Made by a program: the position numbers and the translations under genes. From contig NZ_FXUY01000001.1 in assembly GCF_900182985.1 (NCBI RefSeq), forward strand, positions 744,001 to 808,000: a stretch of DNA of 64,000 nt, read 5' to 3'. The notes under the pieces are model-generated. The model saw only the letters and a list, made by a program, of their open reading frames with translations, did not search any database and had not been told where the DNA came from. Position 1 is the first letter of the stretch. Every line of letters begins with the position of its first letter. Source of the stretch: Pseudomonas helmanticensis (lineage in GTDB: Bacteria; Pseudomonadota; Gammaproteobacteria; Pseudomonadales; Pseudomonadaceae). Below are positions 39,313 through 63,800 of this stretch, one piece after another.

Positions 39313-39409
39313 CCCTGTGGGAGCTGGCTTGCCAGCGATAGCGGTGTTTCAGCCGATAGAGATATAGACTCGACAGGCCTCATCGCTGGCAAGCCAGCTC
39401 CCACAAGGG
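39313..39409. repeat. Paired REP element, class B
   Basis: An inverted pair built on CTGTGGGAGCTGGCTTGCCA followed by GCGAT. This is the intact version of the REP that the IS110 element interrupts at 40163/41341. Confidence 0.85.
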
Positions 39410-40130: not shown

Positions 40131-40186
40131 GCGCCCGCCTCGTAATGCGATCAACTGTGGGAGATTCTATGGTTGAGGGGAAGCCC

Positions 40187-41134
40187 TCAACCTCCCTTCG
40201 GCTGGTATTCGCTTTGCCCCTTCAGCAGCGCGAATACCACTCGCGCAAGCTTGCGAGCCAATATCACCAGCGCCTGTGTCGTACTGAACCCACGGTTTCT
40301 TTGCTCCTCGTAGAAGCTTTTCCAAGCCGGTGTACGGCTGGCCGACATGGCTGCGTTATGGAGCAGTCGCCGGGCCTCTGGGTCTCCGCGTTTGGTCAGG
40401 CTCCGGCGACCGTCCTTTTGTCCTGACTGCGACACGCGCAAATCCATCCCCAAAAACGCAATAAATGCATCCGCGTTTTTGAAGTCGCCCCGCTGAAATG
40501 TTGCGATCAAACGGGCTCCGGTCAAAAAACCAATACCTTCAACTTTTGTGCAGCGCTTCAGATCTGCGAGCAGCCCAGCCTCTTTTAATTGATCGTTGAT
40601 CATCTTCTCGACCAATGTTTCGAGCCTCTGCATTGAGGCCACTTGCTCAGCAAACGCGCTTTTGAGCAGCGGTTCATTCGCCCAGCTTTGCACCAGACCA
40701 ACCCGTGCCTGAACCAGCGCTGCACGACGGCGGAAAAGGCTCAGAAGGCGGCGATATAAAGGCGATGGCGGGATCCAAGGATGAAGCTCTTCGTATTCGT
40801 TTTTTAGATAACGAGCGAGCAGCTTGGCGTCCAGCGCATCGGTTTTGGCGCGAACTTTCACCCCTATTCGGTAATGACTCAACGCGTAGCCATCGACCAT
40901 GTAAATCGTGCACCCGGCTTCATGGGCCAGATCGGCGAACGCCAGGTGATAGATGTTGGTCGATTCGATAGCCAAATCAACAGGTGCAGGCAAGGCTTTC
41001 AGCCATTTTTTGATGGCTGTCTTGTCATTGGAAATAGTCTCGAGCAGATCCAGCTCGGCCTGATAGATGACCAGTTCATTCTTGGCAACATCCACGCCCA
41101 CAATAGGCTTTACGACAGAAACCGGCATTGCCAT
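40187..41134 (-). CDS. IS110-family recombinase (DEDD transposase)
   Basis: A 315-residue recombinase. The RuvC-like DEDD residues are in IVGVDVAKNELVI, DLAIESTNIYHL and RAKTDALDAKLLARYL. The C-terminal domain (VEGIGFLTGARLIATFQRGD, MSASRTPAWKSFY) holds the serine nucleophile region. Relatives use a bridge RNA encoded by the element to choose donor and target. GGGGGA precedes the ATG at 41134. The gene is intact, and the stop lies about 24 bases from the element end. Confidence 0.92.
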   Translation of the reverse strand: MAMPVSVVKPIVGVDVAKNELVIYQAELDLLETISNDKTAIKKWLKALPAPVDLAIESTNIYHLAFADLAHEAGCTIYMVDGYALSHYRIGVKVRAKTDALDAKLLARYLKNEYEELHPWIPPSPLYRRLLSLFRRRAALVQARVGLVQSWANEPLLKSAFAEQVASMQRLETLVEKMINDQLKEAGLLADLKRCTKVEGIGFLTGARLIATFQRGDFKNADAFIAFLGMDLRVSQSGQKDGRRSLTKRGDPEARRLLHNAAMSASRTPAWKSFYEEQRNRGFSTTQALVILARKLARVVFALLKGQSEYQPKGG

Positions 41135-41154
41135 TGAACATCCCCCGAGATATG

Positions 41155-41340
41155 GTTTTGAACACTTGAAGGGGCTCACCCAGGGGCGCAGGCTTGTTCC
41201 TATCGTCGGTCCTGGCCAGATGCATTCTTTATCGGCGCTTGGGTGAAAGGAGGAGGGGCGAAATCTCCCACGGATCTGTACTGCGTCAACAGTCAGAATC
41301 TGGCTTTGTCCCTCCTCCTCCCTTCAAGTCCCAGCATACA
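41155..41340 (-). ncRNA. Candidate bridge RNA of the IS110 element
   Basis: On the minus strand this region folds by eye into a closing stem ACTTGAAGGG/CCCTTCAAGT (41320-41329 with 41164-41173) around two loops. Loop 1 has stem GGAGGAGGG/CCCTCCTCC (41310-41318 with 41249-41257). Its inner sides read AAGCCAG and GTGGGAG, equal or complementary to the REP on either side of the CT core. Loop 2 has stem TCACCCA/TGGGTGA. It contains AAAGAAT and ACAAG, close to the element's own ends (ATAGAAT-CT-TGT). This is the arrangement of target and donor loops in IS621. Confidence 0.75.
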
Positions 41341-41425
41341 AGCTGGCTTGCCAGCGATGCGGTTCAGCCAGTCACCAGATTCGTTGATTGACACTCCGCT
41401 ATCGCTGGCAACCCAGCTCTTGCAG
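41341..41425. repeat. Right part of class B REP pair interrupted by the IS
   Basis: AGCTGGCTTGCCAGCGAT and an inverted, slightly degenerate partner ATCGCTGGCAACCCAGCT. It lacks the CTGTGGG start, which lies on the far side of the element at 40155. Confidence 0.8.
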
Positions 41426-63499: not shown

Positions 63500-63800
63500 T
63501 TTTCCTGTTATGTGGCCGCCGCGCCGAGCTACTAAACAGGGGGTGGCAGCGGTGCGCAGGTTAGTAGACCGGGGAAAAGAAGAAAGCCGGCGCGCCCGAG
63601 GGCGCCCTACGCACAGCCGCCATCAAATGCAGGTACGTGAATACCTTTTTGACAGACGCTTGTGCACTTTCATTTACCTCGGGCTACTAAACCCGGTCAC
63701 TGCGAACAGTGACGCGAATCAAGTTACCGATGGCACTCCAGGCGCACAAGTCGGCGGATTCTGGCGTAGTCGTAGGCAACGGCGCAAGGCGTCGTAGCCT
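63500..63800. repeat. Conserved noncoding block upstream of DUF6124
   Basis: It contains GAGCTACTAAAC and GGGCTACTAAAC with an inverted TTAGTAG between, a GTCACTGCGAACAGTGAC hairpin at about 63697-63714, and a GC-rich GCCGGCGCGCCC segment. I recall similar blocks near DUF6124 genes in other Pseudomonas, but cannot verify this. The open frame 63510-63797 has no protein features I trust. Confidence 0.35.

Follow-up and report, generated by a model that had tools for sequence, protein, structure and literature searches.

Bridge RNAs were published in 2024, with the mechanism of IS621 set out in the cited sections of PMC11208160 and PMC11208158, and they have direct use in programmable DNA recombination. 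Two figure legends of Durrant et al. 2024 (PMC11208160) list ISPpu10 among six further elements with predicted loops matching target and donor (Extended Data Fig. 10c) and set 16 natural guide classes against target motifs (Extended Data Fig. 5a). Natural redirection of the related pairs ISEc11/ISXne4 and ISEc21/ISMch6 was described in the same year (PMC11187229, cited section). REP-specific insertion of ISPpu9 and ISPpu10 had been described in 2006 (PMC1525189, cited section), and a folded 5' UTR of ISPpu9 was reported in 2021 (PMC8450116, cited section).

We analysed a window of 64,000 nt from Pseudomonas helmanticensis, which holds a complete IS110-group insertion sequence of 1,179 bp on its minus strand (Table 1). 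The element starts with CT-TGTATG and finishes with ATAGAAT, so that a CT core at both ends and a short ATA/TAT subterminal repeat (ATAGAAT-CT-TGTAT) are present. Its noncoding portions measure 208 nt upstream of the chosen ATG and 23 nt between the stop codon and the element end, in keeping with the long upstream noncoding end and short right end of the IS110 group. The 315-aa protein contains the DEDD RuvC-like domain PF01548 (7.5e-19) and the Transposase_20 domain PF02371 (1.6e-19), and its only PDB sequence matches at E <= 0.001 were the IS621 and ISCro4 recombinases. Similarity to the IS621 recombinase is low (64.7 bits). Residues E57, D99, D102 and S237 aligned by HMMER to IS621 E60, D102, D105 and S241, with a chain offset of 2 inferred by hand; D15 lies in the expected N-terminal motif and was assigned by motif only, as the HMMER alignment starts at residue 40. 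The start codon, ATG at 41134, was chosen by us, and the open frame continues upstream to a GTG at 41179.

The host genome contains three copies in all, which did not differ over the 1,175 bases searched (100% identity); Transposase_20 has no other match in this genome. All three interrupt a REP at AAGCCAG-CT-CCCAC, while the flanks outside the REP differ from copy to copy. Around the copy in the window, the left REP half reads ...GCTGGCAAGCCAG and the right one CT-CCCACAG. The intact 14-mer AAGCCAGCTCCCAC occurs 47 times in the genome. The element boundaries recur unchanged in relatives, and the left end carried CTTGTA in 160 of the 161 distinct insertions sampled (see below). Two unoccupied, intact AAGCCAGCTCCCAC REPs were also seen in the window, at 39317-39330 (-) and 39391-39404 (+), forming an inverted pair 0.8 kb from the element.

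Among described elements, ISPpu9 of Pseudomonas putida KT2440 also belongs to the IS110 family, inserts into REPs with an AG (CT) direct repeat and has a long folded 5' UTR; it differs in that ssr9 lies downstream of tnp in 5 of its 7 copies, whereas only 23 bp separate the stop codon from the element end here. ISPpu10 of Pseudomonas putida, compared by its published description only, is likewise an IS110-family Pseudomonas element with predicted target and donor loops, and all 7 of its copies lie in REPs, a 2-bp repeat marking the point of insertion (PMC1525189, cited section). The IS1111 group, in contrast, has subterminal inverted repeats of 11-13 bp and an RNA downstream of tnp; in our element the RNA lies upstream and the right end is 23 nt. 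Taking all the evidence below together, we put at about 95% the probability that this is an IS110-group element that splits REPs and whose 5' end encodes a bridge RNA.

Table 1. Features of the insertion sequence and its predicted bridge RNA (positions in the window)
Feature	Position	Strand	Basis
IS110-group insertion sequence	40164..41342	-	LE core CT 41342-41341; final base before RE-side core = 40164
Element ends	ATAGAAT 40170-40164; CT-TGT 41342-41338	-	Sequence
Left target half-site AAGCCAG (left part of interrupted REP)	41343..41349	-	Sequence
Core CT + right target half-site CCCAC (right part of REP)	40157..40163	-	Sequence
Transposase/recombinase gene, 315 aa, DEDD + Transposase_20	40187..41134	-	Pfam, PDB matches, ORF list
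Predicted bridge RNA, closing stem to closing stem	41164..41329	-	Covariance model R2, pair counts
Closing stem, 5' strand ACTTGAAGGG	41320..41329	-	94.1% of cells paired; two-sided changes in 3/10 pairs
Closing stem, 3' strand CCCTTCAAGT	41164..41173	-	Covariance alignment
Target-binding hairpin: stem AGGAGGAGGG/CCCTCCTCCT, internal loop, apical hairpin TCTGACTG...CAGTACAGA	41248..41319	-	Stem 88.3% of cells paired; 7/10 pairs two-sided
Left target guide AAGCCAG, predicted to pair with bottom strand of left target	41300..41306	-	Covaries with left target
Right target guide GTGGGAG, complement of core CT + CCCAC	41265..41271	-	Right-flank comparison in relatives
Donor-binding hairpin: CACCC/GGGTG, GCGC/GCGC, apical TC-GG/CC-GA	41177..41245	-	Covariance alignment
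Left donor guide AAAGAAT, 6/7 against element end ATAGAAT	41224..41230	-	Sequence, relatives
Right donor guide AU-(AGGA)-ACAAG, discontiguous complement of CTTGTAT	41193..41203	-	ACAAG = 41197-41193; IS621 analogue in PMC11208158 (cited section)
Donor-loop handshake bases CC; first C complements target G7	41191..41192	-	Relatives

A preliminary description of this locus had drawn a 10-bp closing stem around two internal-loop hairpins, and all the features it named were located on the minus strand. Its central observation, that the first loop carries AAGCCAG and GTGGGAG against a REP target AAGCCAG-CT-CCCAC, held as a sequence match. When the 208-nt noncoding end was shuffled 20,000 times with dinucleotides preserved, the left 7-mer and the right guide 7-mer co-occurred in 2 of the shuffles, both being required in order and 10-70 nt apart. 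A chance resemblance in a G-rich noncoding end would draw on the fact that REP and loop are both G+C rich, and on a single-sequence fold that is unremarkable (-74 kcal/mol, z -1.75; 8 of 200 shuffles fold equally well); we give this explanation a negligible probability, as it is contradicted by the shuffle result, the conserved fold and the covariation. Since the single-sequence fold does not stand out, the bridge RNA fold rests on comparison with relatives.

For this comparison we used covariance model R2, built from 24 relatives. It matched 55 of the 55 loci given to it at E <= 2.3e-24, these loci having been picked from earlier matches and 22 of them having contributed sequences to the model. 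In the model-fitted alignment (49 distinct rows), 94.2% of the cells were standard pairs, and two-sided changes were found in 16 of the 41 pairs; shuffles gave 8.4 and slid controls no more than 5. Such changes occurred in the closing stem, in the target stem and in the donor apical stem. When the 24 relatives were aligned by MAFFT without model fitting, 92.5% of the cells were paired and 7 of the 41 pairs were two-sided, against 3.0 in shuffled and at most 2 in slid alignments. Mean column identity of the RNA in relatives was 86-87%, and Rfam at gathering thresholds gave no family over the element. The covariance-model check that the preliminary description proposed thus found the fold conserved in relatives.

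What that description said of the second loop stood in part. Both donor guides are present; AAAGAAT, however, agrees with the element end at only 6 of 7 positions, and the right donor guide extends beyond ACAAG. In sequence, the predicted donor-binding loop matches the element's own ends, 6/7 on the left and through AU...ACAAG on the right. The mismatch between guide and donor position 2 is kept by relatives (A; G in one genome), and the base opposite donor position 12 in their right donor guide is A or G. The donor loop is nearly invariant in relatives, and its pairing with the element ends is a prediction from the sequence match.

IS621 of Escherichia coli shares with this element membership of the IS110 group, an upstream noncoding end with target and donor loops, a CT core and insertion into REPs. 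The left guide addressing the bottom strand and the right guide the top strand, the handshake base and the catalytic residues are also common to both, and the right donor CTTGTAT is the same as that of IS621 as read from the residue labels in PMC11208158. The RNAs differ in three respects. Here a 10-bp closing stem surrounds both hairpins, whereas IS621 has a 5' stem-loop; the right target guide matches 7 positions including the core, compared with 4 in IS621; and the spacer interrupting the donor guide is 4 nt long, in place of the 2 flipped-out bases of IS621. The 13 nt before the closing stem formed no stem-loop in the fold. As the closing stem encloses both hairpins and a 5' stem-loop is absent, the RNA would work like that of IS621 while representing a different subtype.

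To obtain relatives, we searched 398 Pseudomonas genomes. The DNA search, which scored 2 candidates per genome, gave matches in 91 genomes, the RNA model search, which scored 7, gave matches in 71, and 22 loci came from scanning named genomes; the sample consists of 90 among the matches listed plus the loci returned and is no census. The noncoding end was matched in full 174 times across its 174 loci, and after removal of 13 duplicates 161 distinct insertions remained. Guides were parsed in 152 of these, from 49 genomes; the 9 unparsed insertions belong to G080 (6) and G046 (3). Read by eye, the guides of G046 are AAGCTCG at AAGCTCG sites and those of G080 are AAGCCGCC at AAGCCGCC sites. The right flank was known for 134 of the 152. 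Since a rigid 7-mer register was applied throughout, matches were undercounted in G301, G364, G383 and G005. Three G046 elements that seemed to lack a full transposase turned out to be scaffold gaps, each with a 100-N run inside the gene.

The left guide varied among relatives: AAGCCAG, AGGCTCG, AAGCCCG, AAGCTCG, AAGCCGG, TAGTTCG and others were found, and relative L037, for example, has the guide AGGCTCG. Guide and own left target were identical at 7/7 positions in 80 of the 152 insertions, and 95 matched at 7/7 when G-U/G-T wobble was counted. In the 92 insertions of group 1 the mean match was 6.59, and it was no higher than 2.57 once the register was slid by 1-3 nt. In unique genome-guide-target rows, 23 guide/target differences were wobble-compatible (G/A 11, T/C 12) and 36 were non-wobble (T/A 10, A/G 7, A/C 7, C/A 6, C/T 3, C/G 2, G/C 1).

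Such likeness could also come from shared history, with related elements sitting in related hosts that have the same REPs and no base pairing involved. Both the elements and their hosts are related to one another, each species has its own REPs, and when targets were shuffled by genome label (48 genomes) the mean match was already 4.71 of 7. The observed mean was 5.90, a value reached in 0 of 2,000 shuffles, and shuffles confined to group 1 or to group 2 also gave 0 of 2,000. We then compared sister pairs, taken as disjoint pairs of nearest remaining elements, the later of which are distant (0.2-0.43). Among the 21 pairs with different guides, 16 were concordant with their targets, 1 was discordant and 4 were neutral. 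Counted by guide position, the pairs gave 29 concordant, 1 discordant and 21 neutral cases, and the 11 pairs closer than 0.19 gave 15, 0 and 3. Many switches of the left guide are thus accompanied by switches of the left target, which is the covariation of loop 1 with flanking sequence for which the preliminary description had proposed to test related copies.

Because REPs differ between hosts, we counted four REP variants in 28 genomes and asked whether site choice followed abundance. The counts cover REPs with the right half CTCCCAC; 3 of 74 insertions, whose left flank fell outside the four variants, and 37 more insertions in the 28 genomes, whose guide did, were left out. Insertions lay in exactly the REP variant of their guide in 61 of 71 cases, compared with 36.8 expected from abundance (P 2.6e-14, insertions being treated as independent in this and the following P values), and in a wobble-compatible variant in 68 of 71 (49.1 expected). 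Since four G367 insertions are at CTCCTAC sites, which were not counted, the test was repeated without this genome and gave 56 of 64 against 36.6 expected (P 1.3e-9). When each combination of genome and guide was counted once, 17 of 20 were exact (10.9 expected, P 3.4e-4) and 20 of 20 were compatible with wobble (15.2 expected); in 13 of these 20 combinations the guide variant was the commonest of the four. When it was not the commonest REP, 19 of 28 insertions were still exact (5.6 expected) and 25 of 28 compatible with wobble. In the P. helmanticensis genome, AAGCCAG sites make up 47 of 305 REPs of the four variants, yet they hold all 3 copies (P 0.0037). In genomes with several REP variants, the guide thus predicts which of them is hit, also when another variant is commoner, and the close sister pairs point the same way; both results argue against shared history, which we consider highly improbable as the source of the match.

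The preliminary description had treated copies with the same loop sequences at unrelated targets as the opposing case. These are rare: at least 6/7 Watson-Crick or wobble matches were found in 134 of the 152 parsed insertions, and the exceptions are L035, L011 and L050. L035, from Pseudomonas sp. DTU12.3, is 99.7% identical to our element and has the guide AAGCCAG but sits at AGGCTCG, with 3 mismatches; the other four distinct copies in DTU12.3 fit the guide-target rule. This case could be due to gene conversion among the copies or to a guide that acts in trans. In L011 (G186), the 16-bp direct repeat CTCCCACATTTGGTAG borders the element at either end; the left guide is unmatched, the right guide is fully matched and position 7 is G. 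L050 adjoins N in a draft contig, which blurs the rule. In G301, G364 and G383/G005, the guide fits only with a bulge or a shifted register.

The right guide changed in one lineage. Guide GTAGGAG was found at CTCCTAC in 7 of 7 insertions, all in one genome (G094), while GTGGGAG was at CTCCCAC in 122 of 127 insertions and at CTCCTAC in 5 (four in G367, one in G364), the latter combination being compatible with G-T wobble. The G080 right guide, GTGAGAG, has one mismatch to CTCCCAC.

These switches bear on a further explanation, in which the 5' fold serves solely to regulate the transposase mRNA as its 5' UTR, a role suggested for the 5' UTR of ISPpu9 in conjunction with an antisense RNA, while the protein itself recognises the REP. 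The 244-nt 5' UTR of ISPpu9 was reported to fold and, together with an antisense RNA, to control translation (PMC8450116, cited section), and in our element a weak promoter-like site lies on the plus strand at 41128-41156, but 0.8 such sites are expected by chance. A UTR would have no reason to follow the flanks in changing from AAGCCAG to AGGCTCG, AAGCCCG, AAGCTCG or AAGCCGG, or to change from GTGGGAG to GTAGGAG where CCCAC becomes CCTAC, and we regard this explanation as improbable. The 5' end may nevertheless have a regulatory role in addition to guiding. An Asr9-like antisense RNA was considered and set aside, the one weak promoter-like site being at chance level.

Target position 7 is G in 151 of the 152 parsed insertions, and a G there always goes with C as the base following the right donor guide. 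In G080, which lies outside the 152, target position 7 is C and the handshake bases are GC, so that the pair would be restored; in this one lineage the handshake base changed together with target position 7. G147 also has C at target position 7 but has TC (U) as handshake bases, and the pair would not be restored; this case is known from a draft contig end. G080 agrees with the handshake pairing of IS621 as described in the cited section of PMC11208158, whereas G147 does not. The G080 elements L175-L177 are also a longer relative, with about 1.37 kb between left and right end, the target AAGCCGCC-CT-CCCAC and the changed handshake base.

The conserved fold, the guide-target covariation and the choice among REPs support the IS621-like bridge RNA logic that the preliminary description had recognised. 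By analogy with IS621, the bridge RNA element would leave the chromosome as a circle, and its joined ends, ATAGAAT-CT-TGTAT, would form the donor site. The excised circle would make the noncoding RNA, as in IS621, and the recombinase would bind it; loop 1 would bind the REP and loop 2 would pair with the joined ends of the element. Strands would then be exchanged at the CT core, if catalysis proceeds as in IS621, so that the element splits the REP. For transcription, the RNA-protein complex, the circular intermediate and catalysis, we infer from IS621. At the end junction, a -35 element of a junction promoter did not score above chance (mean 3.07, compared with 2.81 in shuffles). TAGAAT at the joined ends fits a -10 box; it coincides with the left donor and served as the motif for finding right ends.

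The mechanism is already published, and what the element adds is a wide range of natural guide switches among repeats of a single family. As in the guide switches described in the cited sections of Durrant et al. and PMC11187229, changed guide bases sit at changed targets in related elements; the switches here all belong to a single Pseudomonas lineage, concern variants of the same repeat family and were controlled for host REP abundance, and no such control was found for the published switches in the cited sections of PMC11208160 and PMC11187229. The lineage is a natural experiment in which similar RNA and protein are combined with different target guides, in host genomes that mostly hold dozens to more than 1,000 competing, near-identical targets. 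It gives natural mismatch and wobble tolerance and some independent support for handshake pairing, and its compact 315-aa recombinase with a different RNA architecture is a candidate tool. We consider the chances slightly better than even that this IS lineage tracks host REPs. The left guide would evolve fast in an otherwise well-conserved RNA and be retuned with the host REP, discriminating, with wobble tolerance, variants on the same chromosome that are 1-3 bases apart; the handshake would be retunable with position 7, and the RNA would be a closed three-way-junction type lacking the IS621 5' stem-loop.

Several minor observations were made. L036 and L052 of DTU12.3 are almost the same in sequence, oppositely oriented and separated by about 200 bp, and perhaps occupy the two halves of one inverted REP pair. 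L140/L179 (G299) is a solo left end with a bridge RNA and no transposase match, and CTCCCACAG follows after about 0.24 kb; it is possibly a decayed or non-autonomous element. In L074 (G094), 1,257 bp separate the left end from the first TAGAATCT, compared with 1,178 in sister copies, and about 79 bp may have inserted within this copy. L178, the G252 copy at L112, is truncated, only the first 67 transposase residues being matched. C4 antisense RNAs occur in P4-like phages. One was detected at 63539-63627 (-) (Rfam RF01695, 74.4 bits), which suggests a prophage or satellite at the end of the window.
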